Below, piece after piece: positions 2,759-9,397 of a stretch of 12,843 nt of DNA. Where the stretch lies: contig NW_006920886.1 of NCBI RefSeq assembly GCF_000417875.1, positions 17,083-29,925 on the forward strand, read 5' to 3'. The DNA is from Pseudozyma flocculosa PF-1 (lineage: Eukaryota > Basidiomycota > Ustilaginomycetes > Ustilaginales > Ustilaginaceae). The notes beneath the pieces are model-generated. The model searched no databases. It saw only the letters and a program-made list of their open reading frames with translations, and had not been told where the DNA came from. Positions within the stretch are counted from its first letter, which is position 1; every line of letters starts with the position of its first letter. A program made the position numbers and the translations under genes.

Positions 2759-3504
2759 ATGGGCGTCGCCTTTAGCTCGCTCTGGTCCGGCCTCTTTGGC
2801 TCAAAGGAGCTCAAGATCTGCATCCTCGGCCTCGACAATGCCGGAAAGACGACCCTCATGTACAAAATGACGCTCGGATCCGTCGTCAGCACCGCGCCCA
2901 CCGTCGGCTCCAATACAGGTCCGTCTGCGCCCGCCCCCTCGACATCCCCGCTCGCACTGGCCAAACTGACCGTCCCAAGGCCCTTCACCCCCTCCCCTCG
3001 GCAGAAACATTCGAGTACAAGAACCTCAAGTTCATGCTCTGGGACGTCGGCGGACAGACGTCGCTCCGCACCAGCTGGTCGTCGTACCTCACCGCCACCG
3101 ACGCCGTCATCTTTGTCCTCGACAGCAACGACCGCGCCCGCGTCGACCTCGCAAAGCACGAGCTCCACCGCATCGCAGACGACGAGTCCATCGCAAACGC
3201 CCCCATCCTCGTATGGGCAAACAAGCAGGACATCAAGGGCAGCTTGTCCCCCGCAGAGATCTCCCAGGCGCTCGCCCTCACCGCCTTCCGCGATCGCACC
3301 TGGCAGATCTTTGGCTGCTCGGCCCTCACCGGCAAGGGGTGCGTCGGCTGTGTTGCCGGTGCACCGCCCGTTCCGTCTGAGCCTGGTTTCGCCCGAGCTG
3401 ACTCGGTCCCTCCTGCTTCTGCCCCTCCTCCTTTCCCTTCTTCTCTCGCCAGCCTCACCGAGGGTCTCGATTGGCTGGCACACACCCTCGGCGCAAAGGG
3501 GTAA
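2759..3504 (+). CDS. ARL5: ARL5-type ADP-ribosylation-factor-like GTPase, three exons
   Basis: Exons are 2759-2918, 3005-3338 and 3453-3504. Introns are 2919-3004 (GTCCGT...GCAG) and 3339-3452 (GTGCGT...CCAG), each with a CTGAC branch site. The spliced protein has 181 residues, the usual length for the family. It shows an MGxxxS N-myristoylation start (G2, S6), P-loop GLDNAGKTT (24-32), switch I TAPTVGSN (45-52), WDVGGQ (66-71), NKQD (126-129) and CSAL (158-161). GSN after switch I and SLRTSW after WDVGGQ match ARL5 better than ARL1, which has GFN and IRPYW. ARL5 proteins are trans-Golgi GTPases that recruit tethering factors in endosome-to-Golgi traffic. The stop TAA (3502-3504) sits inside a consensus splice donor, so a longer product fused to the downstream methyltransferase is possible (see 3501-4373). 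The family call is firm; the true C terminus is the open question. Confidence 0.93.
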
Positions 3505-3867
3505 GTGGCCACCCGCGCCTCATTGGCCCCGTCCGACTCCCCTCTCCCGCCCCCCTGGCCGTCTCTCTCTCTCCCCCTTCCTCGCGTCTCTACCCCTCTC
3601 TTTCCTCTTGGACAAGGTCTCGGCCAGCTGGCGTGCCTCTTGACGACGTCGACGTCGGAGCGATGCCTGCGACGCGCCGCATTGTCGCCAGTCCTCTGAA
3701 AAGCATCGGCAGCGGAGCCATCCGCCGACGTGCCCGGCACGCTCCTCTTGCCCGCCACCGCCTGGCCCATGCTGCGTTTTCCGCAGCACTGCGGCCACGC
3801 ACGCACGCGCTCGTCCCACGGCCTCGTATAGAGCTCCTCCGCGCACGGCACTACGCACGCGCCCGCG

Positions 3868-3889
3868 CACACACACACACACACACACA
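3868..3889. repeat. (CA)11 dinucleotide repeat
   Basis: A perfect 22-nt CA tract is followed by an imperfect extension (GCACACACGCGCACACGTG) to about 3909. It lies in the ARL5-methyltransferase gap and is complementary in kind to the GT-rich tract about 220 nt downstream. Confidence 0.95.
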
Positions 3890-4129
3890 TGCACACACGC
3901 GCACACGTGCCACTCGCCGTCGAGCAACCTGCCACCCGTATACCTCGCGCCGCCCGGCGGAACGCCCAATGAACATTCGATCAACGCCCTACTCCAGCCG
4001 GCCGGATCCGTGCGCACCGGCTCAGCTCGGCCAGCGTCTCGCTCGTCATGGCTCTCGTGGCGCCCGTTTCGAGTGGATCCAGAGAGGAGGGCACTCGTCT
4101 GCGGCTCAATGGCGAGTGGGCGTGCCTTT

Positions 4130-4160
4130 GTGTCCGTGTGCGTGTGCGTGTGTGTGTGCT
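4130..4160. repeat. GT/GTGC-rich tract, complementary to the upstream CA repeat
   Basis: Alternating GTGTGC and GTGTGT sequence with a few interruptions. In the plus-strand transcript it could pair with the CA tract at 3868-3909, looping out about 220 nt. It also contains two GTGCGT strings (4138-4143 and 4144-4149) that could act as splice donors. Confidence 0.85.
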
Positions 4161-4373
4161 GGGATGCGTGCGAAGTGTGCGAGTGCGGGTGGCGTTGCTG
4201 GCGTCGATGCTTCTGAGCTGCACTCGGAGGTGCCGACGGCGCCGCCGGGATCCTTGCGCGAGAGATGCCGCGAGGGACGAGGACCCGCCGTTGCTGTTTG
4301 CTCTCTCGTCGGTCTGATTCAGGTTTTGCTGACGCATCGACTCGCTACCCCTCCCTTGCCACCACGACGACAG

Positions 4374-5823
4374 GTTCAGCTACGAGGCGCTGATCTCTTC
4401 CGCTTTGGGCGAGTCGGACACGCCGGCCACATCGACCTCGACGGGCACACCGAGCGCAGAGCCGCCATCCCTCGCCGCTCTCTCGCTCGACGCATCGTCA
4501 TCCAACACCGCCGCCGATGCGGCAGGATCGAACGACAAGACAAACGAAGACAAAGCGGGAAGCGCGGACGAGCCGCCAAAGGCGCACGAACGGCAGGCGT
4601 ACGATGCCGAGGTCGAGGCGCAGCTGAGCGCCGTGCTCGCCACCAACCGACGCACGGCGACGCCGTTCGTCGTCGACAAGACGACGCGCGAGGCGTCGCG
4701 AAACTGGGACCGCTTCTACAAGCTGCACGCCGACCGCTTCTTTAAAGACCGCCACTGGACCAGCCGCGAGTTTGGGTCGCAGATTGGCGGCAGCAGCGCC
4801 GGCGATCCCGCGTCCCCGCCTGCGTCCGCAACCGCCTCGACGGCGTCGACAACGGCAGCGGGAGCGAAACGGGGCGGGGAGGATGACCGCGAAGAGGAGG
4901 CGAGGTTCGTCGCTGGCCGCGAGGCGGGCGAGTCCGGCGATGGCGACGGCGACGGCGACGGCGATGGAGAGGAAAAGGTGCTGCTCGAGGTCGGATGCGG
5001 CGTGGGCAACATGCTCTTCCCGCTGCTCGAGGCCGATCCCAAGCTCAAGGTGCACTGCTGCGACTTTTCCCAGAGGGCCATCGAGATTGTCAAGGTGCGT
5101 CTCCAGGCCGGGCCGGGCCGAGCCGGGTTGCGTGCTCGTCGGGGTGGGGGGGTGCCGTGTCGTTTCGTGTCGTGTCGGGTCGGGTCGGCTTGGGGCCCTG
5201 TGGAAGGCATGCTGACACTCGATCAACCTCTTTGTCTCCCTCGCCGCCTCGCCTCGCCCCCGTTTTTTGGCCAGGCGCATCCCAACTACGACGCGGCGCG
5301 GGTGAATGCCTTTGTGTATGACCTGACGAGCAGCGATCCGCCGCTGTCGTCGTTTCTCTCGACGCCGCAGACGGCGGGCTGGAAGCCGATTACGACGATC
5401 AGCATGATTTTCGTGCTGTCGGCCATTCCGCCTCAGCTGCACGCCTCGACGCTGGCGAGCATGGTGACGCTGCTGCGCCACCAGCTGTCGCTGCTGGGGC
5501 CGACGCTGCCGGACGGCACGCCGACGCGGGGCCACCTGATTCTGCGCGACTACGCCCACGGCGACCTGTCGCAGGTGCGCTACCACACCAAAAAGGACGC
5601 CGGATGGGCCGAACCGTCGCTCCTCGACGCCCAACGGCCCTGGTACAAGCGCGGCGACAATACCTTCAACTACTTTTTCACGCGCGACGAACTCGACGCC
5701 CTCGCCCGCCAGGTCGGCATCACCGGAGAGGTCGAGTCCATCTACCGCACCGCCGTCAACCGAAAGCGCGCAGAGGGAAGGCAGAGGAGATTCGTACAGG
5801 CCAAATGGACCGTCGAGCCCTGA
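4374..5823 (+). CDS. TRM140: tRNA (cytidine-32 N3)-methyltransferase domain, TRM140/METTL2 family; lacks its own ATG
   Basis: The family forms m3C at position 32 of tRNA-Thr and/or tRNA-Ser using SAM. Exons are 4374-5094 and 5275-5823; the intron (GTGCGT...CCAG, CTGAC at 5212) is 180 nt. Signatures are NWDRFYKLHADRFFKDRHW (family N-terminal motif), LLEVGCGVGN (SAM motif I), CCDFSQRAIEIVK, AFVYDLT, ISMIFVLSAIPP, LILRDYAHGDLSQVRY and RGDNTFNYFF. The segment encodes about 422 residues, with a Ser/Ala/Asp-rich leader before the conserved domain and an Asp/Gly run just before motif I. The frame has no ATG until 5011, just after motif I, and upstream stops at 4315 and 4330 close it. The translation start must therefore come from a spliced upstream exon, either ARL5 exon 3 (in phase, giving 603 residues in all) or a small private exon. 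The domain call is secure; the 5' structure is inferred. Confidence 0.9.
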
Positions 5824-6251: not shown

Positions 6252-9200
6252 ATGACCAGCAACGACGACGTTGACATGCAGGATGTGCCGCCTGAAAGGC
6301 AGCCTCTTTCGTCGCCGACATCGACGGCATCCACAGCAGACAGTGCGCTGGTATCAGAAGGCTTTCGCCGCGCCTGTGCCAAGCTGCTCGATTCTCCGAG
6401 GTCGCTCATGACACTTCAGATCACGGCCCTCAGAAAAATCCTTGCCGCCGATCCGGCCGACGATCCGGCCATGCTTCAGGAGCATCAGCAGTTGCTACAT
6501 GCAGACATCTCCGTGTGGCTCAGGGAAATGCATTCCTACGAGAAGTTCGTCAAGCAAGCGCCTCCCCTTGAGTTTTCTCGACGCCTCATCGACAGCGACG
6601 GCAACCCCATCAAGGTCCTGTCCAACAAAGGCGAGCTTTTCCGCCGCTTTTACCAGCGCTGGTCCAAGTCGGAAGACCTCGAGCCCGTCGCGCTGCTCGA
6701 CTGGATGCTCGTCCATGGTACCCAAGTGCCTCAGAGGGTCGGACCTCCAGTGCTCAGCGGAGCCGAGGCAGTTCCCTTTTGGCAGCTCGCCGCTTCCTTC
6801 AACGAGCCTTACCTGGGTGATCAGGTTCGCTGGGCAGAGCATCTGATCCGTGTCGAGTACGGAGCCAGGTACCGAGAAGCCCGAGCCACCGGCGACAAGC
6901 GCAACTACTACTACAGCAAGACTCTGCCCATCGTGCAGTCGAGTGGGACAGGCAAGAGTCGCCTGGTGAGTTGCCCTGTTTTTTGGCCATGCCTCTCGCT
7001 CTCTGCCTTGCTTCTCCGCTCATCTTCCCAAGTCCGGCTTCCGCCACCGTGCCCACCCATTGTCTGTGTTGCCGCTAGGTCTGGGAGCTGCGCCACTGCT
7101 GGCCGTCGCTTTCGCTCACTTTACGTCGCTCTGGCAACGACGCAGTCCCCACGTCCGGCTATCCGCTCCAAGATAATGCCGCCAAGGACTACTTCAGCCA
7201 AAGTGGCACCGTCGACCCCGACCTCATCGTCATCGCCTTCATCGCAGCGTGGCTAAAGCAGGCCGCCATCACCGTCCACGTCGGAGCCGACTCCATGGCT
7301 GGCCTCTTTGCCACCTGGGACTACAGCGTCCGGGAGACCTCGACCAAGAAGTGGATCCCCAACCAGCAGCGTCACGACGCCTTTGAGGCAGTGGCTCGAC
7401 GCGCCAGGGCTAACGTCACCCGGTATCGTGACGAAGTGCTCCGTGGATGCGTGCCCAAGACGGAAGATGCGATGCCCGAGTTCAAACACGACGAGATCAT
7501 CGGACGGGCCGAGGAAATGGTGCGCTTGCTCATCAAGCCAGCTTTGCAGGATCTCAGCGACAAGCTGCTAGAGGCGCCCGTGGTCAAGGCTGCACAAAGG
7601 AAGTTCGACCTCGAGCGGCCACTGCTGCTCCTGGCCATCGACGAGTGCACGCTCTTGGAACAGCTCACGAGCAAGGCAATGCTTCTGCACCTTCGCCGAT
7701 GCTTCTCGATGATTGACGACATTGCCAGCCCCGACCTCGACGTTTGGCTGCTGTTGCTCGATACGTCGAGCTCCGTAGGCCAAATGGTCCCATCGGAGAA
7801 GCACAAAAAGTCGTCCAGAGAGCAGGAGATGCTGTCCTTTTCTCCGCTGATCCCGGTCGGGTTCGACGTCTTCGTCGATCCAAGCCACCACCCCGCCAGG
7901 CCTGCCGATGCGCTCCGGCTGGACGCCCTGAAGCGGTACGGTCGGGCTTTGTGGCACCAGTACGGGGCGAATCGGCTGGTGACGGTGGCCTCAATGAAGC
8001 TGTGCGGCGAGGTCGACGCCAACAAAGTCAGTCCCGAGCTCCGGGCCATCACGCTCCTCTCGCACCGAGTGTGCCTCGAGGTCCTGCCCATTAGAAGCAG
8101 CCTGGGATCCTGGCTACTCCCAACGGCTTTGGTCGACAAGCACCTGCGCTGGATCCTCAGCTTCGTTGACGATGACACCATCTACACCCGGGCTTTGAGC
8201 GAGCCGGCTCTGGCTCTTGCCGCTTGGTACCGACTGACGGACGATGGAGGCGGCGAAACGCCGGAAGCATGGACGTACTCGGACGTCGTTCTGACCATGT
8301 CACAGCGCCTGATCAACGCGTCGCCCGTCGACATCAAGGGAGCCAACGGCGAATTTCTGGTGCGGCTTCTCCTCACCATGGCGCGGGACGCCAGCGAGGA
8401 AGTCGAGCGTGCACGCGCTCTCCGTATCCTCTCGCTGCTCCAGTCGGTGCCAGCGGTCAGTGCGTCCTCTTTCCTCTCGGGACTGCTCGGCCACGAGCGC
8501 GGCTCGAGCGCTCTCGCGCAGCTGGAGCAGGCCATCGATCTGAGGCGTCATGGAGGCGGTCTGGCAAATCTGGGTCGCTCGTGGTCCCACTGGCAGCAAG
8601 ATGCGACCAAGCAACAAAGAGACGAGCAACGAGGCACCGGAACAGACAAGGGCGAAGGCGGCTCAAGGTCCAGCCAGGGCGACGGCAGCGGCCCCGCAGA
8701 GCCCAAGCGCGGCGCATGGCTCAACTTCACCCACATGGCGGTGCTGGTGTGCGAGCTGCAGCTCATCTCGAGGCAGTACCTCTGGAAGTGCTGGAAGCGC
8801 GGCGTCGCCCTGCAGTGCCATTCCTCGCAGCGCGGCATCGACGGCATTCTGCCCGTCTTTCTGGGATCCCTCGACGAAAAGCTCGACGAGCGCGAGGCAG
8901 CGGCACGCATGACGTACATTGGCTGGCAAGCCAAGAACCAGGCCGACGCGTGCGCGACGCGCGCGTGCTTCCATGGGCCGCTGCATGCCTTGTCGCCGAC
9001 GCCGCAACAGGGCACACTGGAGGAGCCGCCGCCGCCGCCGCCGCCGCCGACGCGCGAGGGAGACCCGCCGCTGTTCACGCTCGTATTCGAGCTGGGCACG
9101 TCGGCCGAGTTTCGGGACAGCAGCATCTCGAAGCACGTCAAGGTGGTCAACGAAGCGTGCGCAAAGGCGGCCTGCGGCGGCGTCAAGTGCCTCACGCTGC

Positions 9201-9397
9201 GGATCCGCGGCTGCGATGCGGCCGTCTACCCTTTCCTGGAGCGGTGGCGCGTCACGGCGCCCTTTGTCGCCATGGTCGAAAAGCGGGACCTGCTCCCCGA
9301 CGACTGGGCCCGCGAGCAGGTCGGTCAGAACCCTGGCGATGACGGCAGGGAGGGAGACGTGATACCGCCCCTCGTTGATGCTGAGGCGCTGCCGTGA
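6252..9397 (+). CDS. P-loop NTPase with C-terminal PD-(D/E)xK-like nuclease region (Crinkler-RHS-type-like), two exons
   Basis: Exons are 6252-6965 and 7079-9397; the 113-nt intron (GTGAGT...GCTAG) falls directly after the Walker A codons. The protein has 1010 residues, starting at the first ATG in the frame (context GCCATGACC). Visible motifs are Walker A SSGTGKSRL (230-238), GYPLQD soon after, Walker B LLLLAIDECTLL (D426, E427), and a sensor-like strand LLLLDTSSS (about 462-470). A middle region contains RYGRALWHQY and SEPALALAAWY, a pattern I associate with a large basidiomycete P-loop family. The C-terminal part carries RGIDGILPVF (D826) and IGWQAKNQ (Q855, K857), matching the D...QxK core of Mrr-like PD-(D/E)xK nucleases. 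NTPase plus nuclease recalls Crinkler-RHS-type effectors and their fungal relatives. There is no signal peptide. Eight prolines (888-895, CCG repeats) sit in a loop after QxK. Role unknown; possibilities are an effector, a genome-conflict protein or a domesticated relative. Confidence 0.85.

Follow-up and report, generated by a model that had tools for sequence, protein, structure and literature searches.

The question raised by this locus is whether an ARL5 gene ends at its stop codon or continues through it into a second enzyme. The window, i.e., the whole stretch analysed, comprises 12,843 bases of Pseudozyma flocculosa PF-1 (contig NW_006920886.1, positions 17,083 to 29,925), and all positions below follow its numbering. 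Within it, the stop codon of a gene for the GTPase ARL5 is TAA, formed by bases 2–4 of a GTAAGT splice donor, and a tRNA 3-methylcytidine (m3C)-type methyltransferase that appears to have no usable start of its own lies downstream. It is quite likely, judged from sequence, that ARL5 is joined to the methyltransferase by splicing in one gene. This five-exon gene would encode 603 residues, arranged as ARL5 GTPase, linker and tRNA m3C-type methyltransferase. Removal of an 873-nt intron would take out the ARL5 stop as part of the donor, and the frame would continue in phase into the methyltransferase. The parts of the proposed gene are as follows.

2759-2918, + strand: ARL5 exon 1, with the Met-Gly2 start and P-loop GLDNAGKTT (PF00025, E 2.3e-63)
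3005-3338, + strand: ARL5 exon 2, with WDVGGQ and NKQD
3453-3500, + strand: ARL5 exon 3, ending in AKG, a C-terminus matching the standalone 181-residue ARL5 of Ustilago tritici
3501-3506, + strand: GTAAGT splice donor, with the in-frame ARL5 stop TAA (3502-3504) inside
3501-4373, + strand: putative 873-nt intron between ARL5 exon 3 and the acceptor (an intergenic region if there are two genes)
4329-4333, + strand: CTGAC, branch-point-like, AG-free from here to the acceptor
4371-4373, + strand: CAG acceptor, phase 2, matching the donor after 3500
4374-5094, + strand: proposed fusion exon 4, with the FSYEAL start, linker, m3C N-terminal region (FFKDRHWTSREF) and S-adenosylmethionine (SAM) motif I LLEVGCGVGN
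5275-5823, + strand: proposed fusion exon 5, with the remainder of the m3C-type methyltransferase and stop TGA

Across the window, the + strand has a single GTAAGT and the - strand has none. As the initial annotation had claimed, the stop inside it closes ARL5 at the normal length of the family. The standalone ARL5 proteins of Ustilago tritici (a 44-member cluster, ending in AKG) and Melanopsichium (ending in AKA) both have 181 residues, which places the window stop at an ordinary protein end. A stop within a donor is ordinary per se, as any phase-2 intron with GTAA, GTGA or GTAG has one; the notable feature is that this donor stop coincides exactly with the normal C-terminus of the ARL5 family. 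According to a rough estimate from the codon usage and base composition of the window, the chance of finding GG/GTAAGT across the stop of an ARL5 that ends in Gly-stop is about 0.1%, or about 0.3% if GTGAGT is counted as well.

The acceptor side of the join also bears out the earlier description. The methyltransferase frame is shut upstream by TGA codons at 4315 and 4330, with the upstream in-frame ATGs (4207, 4048, 3889 and 3769) all behind these stops, and the first ATG of this frame after the acceptor is at 5011. The CAG acceptor has CTGAC upstream, and no AG occurs between 4321 and 4372, AGs being present only at the flanks. Donor and acceptor phases agree, and the 3500/4374 join gives an open frame of 603 residues. 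Among 16 YAG acceptors tested in 3560-4640, only two (4374 and 4380) reach the methyltransferase frame free of stops; 4374 is favoured over 4380 because relatives retain FSY. Codon usage was scored with 1,194 training codons taken from two other frames in the window. For the methyltransferase frame the score rises at the acceptor, with a value of 0.28 over 4350-4440, and is positive over most of exon 4, the low-complexity insert excepted. The scan of 3505-4350 revealed no frame with a steady coding signal, the weak positives there reaching up to 0.17.

The most direct evidence comes from relatives. With the 603-residue join as query, 136 of 7,992 scored candidates passed, and among the best 120 of these, two proteins match the full query (100%) and carry both PF00025 and PF08242. 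They are the models P0001 of Thecaphora frezii (Urocystidales; 597 aa, 65% identity to the window join) and P0003 of Violaceomyces palustris (Violaceomycetales; 587 aa, 58% identity). The register of the join is identical in all three, i.e., AKG-FSYEAL in the window, AKG-FSYDAI in Thecaphora and AKG-FSYDQI in Violaceomyces. The splice join put forward in the initial annotation is supported by this shared junction and by the conserved exon start, both relatives being represented by predicted models. In addition, P0012, encoded on a 1,909-base metagenome contig, has RPCS-FSYDAV ahead of its methyltransferase; the Cys-Ser before FSYDAV is what a frame running through a TGCAG acceptor followed by C or T would give. 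The pattern FS[YF][DE] is present in 4 of the 258 fetched proteins (P0001, P0003, P0012 and P0128), the last being an ARF-domain protein whose FSFD lies far from the GTPase. The idea that FSY(D/E) is a general METTL6 N-terminus was rejected, as it was seen in only 3 of 106 methyltransferase-like proteins (P0001, P0003 and P0012).

The linkers also align beyond expectation: the real score was reached by none of 1,000 shuffles for window-Thecaphora, none of 1,000 for window-Violaceomyces and 4 of 1,000 for Thecaphora-Violaceomyces. An ARL5-only survey of long proteins (588 candidates, 27 matches) returned the same two methyltransferase fusions. Three further long ARL5 proteins (P0014, P0016 and P0122) consist of a dihydroorotate dehydrogenase (DHODH) with a C-terminal ARL5, in Rhizoctonia and Ceratobasidium. 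Beside its ARL5-DHODH models, Rhizoctonia is represented by a standalone ARL5 of 183 residues (P0147). An AlphaFold model of P0001 (17-row alignment) has a mean predicted local distance difference test (pLDDT) score of 64.6 and a predicted template modelling (pTM) score of 0.53. Its methyltransferase core is mostly above 80, the ARL5 half is poor, and residues 178-239 and 291-363 fall below 50; the model is informative on what appears to be a disordered linker, not on domain packing.

The GTPase half contains Gly2, the P-loop, WDVGGQ and NKQD, all as in ARL5. The PDB-score ranking puts yeast Arl1 (197.1 bits) above the ARL5 chains (189.9 bits), with Arl1, Arf1 and ARL5 similarly near. Its switch I, PT(V/I)GSN, has GSN as in four animal ARL5-type proteins, whereas one ARL1 and two ARFs have GFN. 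In the GTPase tree, the window protein stands with ARL5B and basidiomycete relatives, the 14 and 5 rows being split at 98/99. The GTPase is called ARL5 on account of this tree and the GSN motif, not of the PDB score. ARL5 is a trans-Golgi GTPase (PMC11585589). The window GTPase shares with it Gly2, the nucleotide motifs, PT(V/I)GSN and the place in the tree with animal ARL5B, but differs in that the C-terminus of the proposed protein runs on into an enzyme. No second ARL5 was found among 14 matches (17 candidates scored) in the host genome (23,045,585 bases in 33 contigs), where matches outside the locus are at most 59% identical.

The enzyme half matches PF08242 with 45.6 bits (cut-off 30) and has a class I SAM-dependent fold with motif I. 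METTL6 chains in the PDB match it at E 1.6e-32 (116.4 bits), and the m3C-specific N-terminal region (NWD-FYK, FFKDRHWT-REF) is present, aligned to 8owx and conserved in relatives. The initial annotation had labelled this enzyme TRM140/METTL2, a label that does not hold. The N-terminal HN-x-WD motif, which we take to be a METTL2 marker, is absent. The genome holds a second m3C-type enzyme, of METTL2/Trm140-type, at C23:342090-342756, with the motif AHNAWDHV. In a 33-row tree, built from a selection of the 106 methyltransferase-like proteins plus the window enzyme and this C23 paralogue, the HN-x-WD proteins (the C23 paralogue, P0093 and P0095) form a 100/98 clade with the window enzyme outside. 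One of these, P0095, is a fish protein named tousled-like kinase 2 that has a METTL2-type domain with HNAWDNV, possibly a model merged with a neighbouring gene. The window enzyme is not of METTL2/Trm140-type.

What the enzyme is can be stated less firmly. The 33-row tree has three groups: a basidiomycete clade including the window (98/92), animal METTL6 (97/97), and METTL2-type proteins together with plants (92/91). A 13-row tree had split METTL2-type proteins and a plant protein named trm141 from the remainder at 87/90. A grouping of the enzyme with METTL6 was dropped after the larger tree, in which the branch joining the basidiomycete clade to animal METTL6 is weak (77/54). METTL6 chains score the C23 paralogue higher (173.9 bits) than the window enzyme, so the PDB score cannot settle the subfamily. 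By elimination, the window enzyme would be the counterpart of METTL6/Trm141, which acts on tRNA-Ser together with SerRS. This assignment is made because the named animal relatives among the matches listed are METTL6, and because the genome has two m3C-type enzymes, as S. pombe has two paralogues, of which trm141 serves tRNA-Ser and trm140 serves tRNA-Thr (PMC5372738). The window enzyme resembles METTL6 and S. pombe Trm141 in its m3C-type core and motifs, but the fungal clade is not inside animal METTL6 in the tree, and SAM motif I is preceded by an additional low-complexity insert. Moreover, the U. maydis entries are standalone, whereas the window enzyme would be fused via a linker.

Several observations weigh against a single gene. 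The proposed intron of 873 nt is long compared to the median of 117 nt of 53 estimated introns, of which three reach at least 300 nt (365, 370 and 938). The sample was hand-picked from gaps with flanking family coordinates no more than about 6 positions apart, which biases it to short introns. Left out were pairs that lack residues, several of them having longer gaps, and abutting gaps of 296 (C25) and 57 (C9); a few of the retained pairs share a single open frame and may be insertions. For U. maydis, however, introns supported by expressed sequence tags (ESTs) run from 24 to 1,899 nt (mean 169.8; PMC2219887). The methyltransferase frame is weakly positive (codon-usage score up to 0.13) in parts of 3390-3840, and the window-Thecaphora linker signal is weak without its first six residues, 16 of 1,000 shuffles then reaching the score. 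Being predicted models, compared at the protein level, P0001 and P0003 could have been merged by the gene caller, as may have happened with the ARL5-DHODH models of Rhizoctonia. Finally, the entries under the names Ustilago, Sporisorium and Melanopsichium are each either an ARL5 or a methyltransferase on its own; the methyltransferases of U. maydis, U. hordei and Sporisorium graminicola stand alone, start with a Met of their own and lack FSYD. The initial annotation had named separate loci in close relatives as an observation that would speak against the fusion, and at the level of protein entries this is partly borne out in the Ustilago group. Further features of the region, some of them used by two structures that leave the genes unjoined, are as follows.

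3849-3904, + strand: CA/GT inverted repeat, left arm, 79% complementary
4122-4177, + strand: CA/GT inverted repeat, right arm, containing the candidate private-exon donors
4109-4137, + strand: possible private first exon, with ATG and donor GTGCGT; variant ends at 4131 and 4143
4265-4289, + strand: first exon of the deposited model P0002, with donor GTTGCT at 4290; second exon from 4526

ARL5 may simply end at its TAA, with the methyltransferase using a promoter in 3505-4373 and a private exon (ATG 4109) spliced to 4374; the fusion models of the relatives would then be mergers made by callers that found no start. That ATG has three in-phase candidates, against a mean of 0.24 and a maximum of 3 in 500 base shuffles, yet at least one candidate arises in 17% of the shuffles and the three amount to one ATG in a GT repeat. 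The donors at 4132, 4138 and 4144 are GTCCGT or GTGCGT, and GTGCGT is also the donor of two other introns of the same gene. While this arrangement agrees with the separate proteins of the Ustilago group and with the deposition of P0002 as a separate protein, it makes the perfect in-phase donor across the ARL5 stop a coincidence at the chance level estimated above. Moreover, each of the two named relatives whose exon opens with FSYD has AKG immediately before it in a single model. The lack of a steady coding signal in 3505-4373 also speaks against it, although a 29-nt exon is too short to give one. Altogether, two genes are improbable here. P0002, whose source name begins "related to ABP140", is 100% identical over 62% of the 603-residue fusion, and exons 4265-4289 and 4526-5094 reproduce this database protein letter for letter, so that its methyltransferase would start at ATG 4265 with an intron at 4290-4525 and leave the genes unjoined. 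Such a structure relies on the weak donor GTTGCT and skips 4374-4525, including the FSYEAL segment conserved in Thecaphora, Violaceomyces and P0012. Because of this omission the P0002 gene model is probably mis-annotated, and the chance that it is correct is very slight.

Two further ideas about the intron itself were considered. A transposon was rejected, as all 12 other genome matches of the 873 nt fall within its CA/GT stretches. The 56-nt CA/GT inverted repeat folds with a z of -3.0, and none of 20 shuffles folds as well; a hairpin that brings the splice sites together was considered, but comparable repeats have matches at other places in the genome, with no tie to splicing.

If the single spliced gene is accepted, its output has to be considered. 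A message spliced 3500/4374 would encode the fusion, as sequence and relatives suggest, and a message that retains the intron or ends inside it would encode the ordinary 181-residue ARL5. Among the 193 alternative splicing events known from U. maydis ESTs, 114 are cases of intron retention (PMC2219887), which makes intron-keeping messages at this locus plausible. A functional dual output of ARL5 alone and fusion is compatible with the sequence, and is proposed tentatively, as somewhat less likely than not. A variant of the joined gene, whose odds overlap with those of the fusion as such, is constitutive splicing: the donor stop would be incidental, as in all phase-2 introns of this kind, the locus would yield no functional free ARL5, and the fused GTPase would perform the ARL5 job. 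None of the best 120 of 1,168 ARL5-like proteins is named Thecaphora, Violaceomyces or Pseudozyma, which fits this variant, many of these rows having no name and cluster names concealing members. The frequency of retention in U. maydis and the fact that an intron-retained form would be exactly the family-standard 181-residue ARL5 argue in the other direction, and constitutive fusion is given close to an even prospect.

With regard to location, the window protein has Gly2, and an N-myristoylated, GTP-bound ARL5 could position the enzyme at the trans-Golgi; tethering of the enzyme to the Golgi is offered as a hypothesis. The linker of about 70 residues, disordered in the Thecaphora model, means that fusion need not block the enzyme region behind it. 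The most far-reaching version combines all these elements. One locus would supply free ARL5 and fusion, depending on whether the stop is read or spliced; m3C32 methylation, probably of tRNA-Ser, would be recruited to the Golgi in a GTP-dependent way; the arrangement would be shared with Urocystidales and Violaceomycetales and re-split in the Ustilago group; and, independently of Abp140, an m3C enzyme would for a second time be linked to a localisation module via a stop that can be bypassed. Taken as a whole, this version is rather unlikely.

The history of the fusion is told differently by its two halves. In the ARL5 tree, the three fused ARL5 domains form a group of their own (90/90) that leaves out the Ustilago-group proteins. 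The methyltransferase tree instead places the Ustilago group inside the fused set: Violaceomyces is first to branch in a clade of seven (98/95), whose other members, Ustilago group included, are held at 86/84. The methyltransferase tree and taxonomy suggest an old fusion that was re-split in the Ustilago group; the two halves are not in firm agreement on this. The window pairs with Thecaphora in both trees (100/99 for the methyltransferase, 90/66 for ARL5), at odds with the NCBI taxonomy, in which Pseudozyma flocculosa belongs to the Ustilaginaceae and Thecaphora to the Urocystidales.

Elsewhere in the window, a PIG-V-like GPI mannosyltransferase (PF04188) lies at 965-2230 on the - strand, with an in-frame 9-copy GAGGGC tandem repeat at 1335-1390. 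A probable two-exon gene at 6252-9397 on the + strand has a GTGKS motif resembling a P-loop, and matches no Pfam family above the cut-off. A known RNA gene was rejected on an Rfam scan of the window, which gave no match above the gathering score.

The nearest known system is Abp140/Trm140 of S. cerevisiae, in which an actin-binding N-terminus and an m3C enzyme are produced together because translation shifts to the +1 frame ahead of codon 280, a stop in the zero frame (PMC5009743). Another review describes its activity as arising from the zero frame without frameshifting (PMC5372738). Both loci combine an N-terminal localisation module with a C-terminal m3C32 enzyme and an in-frame stop to be passed. 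The yeast module, however, is a 17-residue actin-binding segment reached by +1 ribosomal frameshifting, whereas here it would be a complete GTPase domain joined by splicing to an enzyme outside the METTL2/Trm140 clade. The locus is analogous in its working to Abp140-like recoded fusions but not a member of them, the join being made by splice phase.

Fusions of this general kind have precedents. ARF proteins across eukaryotes include 75 multidomain proteins among more than 2,000 sequences (PMC8358228), and the proposed protein would resemble these in combining an ARF-family GTPase with another domain as a lineage-specific innovation; the main text of that study contains no occurrence of "methyltransferase". 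On the enzyme side, METTL6-like domains are present in flatworm proteins named TSR3 or 18S rRNA aminocarboxypropyltransferase (P0089, P0094, P0101 and others), and the matches listed include METTL6-like plant proteins that carry PF10294 as an additional domain, the enzyme often being annotated in larger proteins. These share with the proposed protein an m3C-type domain within a larger annotated protein, but their partners are unrelated to ARL5. No link between ARL5 and a methyltransferase was found in the open-licence PMC papers searched, nor any literature there on UMAG_11792, the tag of the U. maydis methyltransferase, and similar locus tags, one of these tags being a guess. The earlier statement that such a fusion had not been described stands for this literature; the architecture is already in protein databases, unremarked, with annotated examples from two other smut orders. 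The sequence evidence indicates that this is probably a real gene fusion with an architecture new to the literature searched.

If real, the fusion would tie tRNA modification to a membrane-trafficking switch. The significance of Abp140 frameshifting and of its presumed location-specific methyltransferase activity has been called unknown (PMC5009743), and the P. flocculosa locus would provide a second system for asking why m3C enzymes are localised. The analysis also suggests that the gene model deposited for the locus is faulty. More generally, a stop codon that doubles as a splice donor would represent a route to gene fusion.

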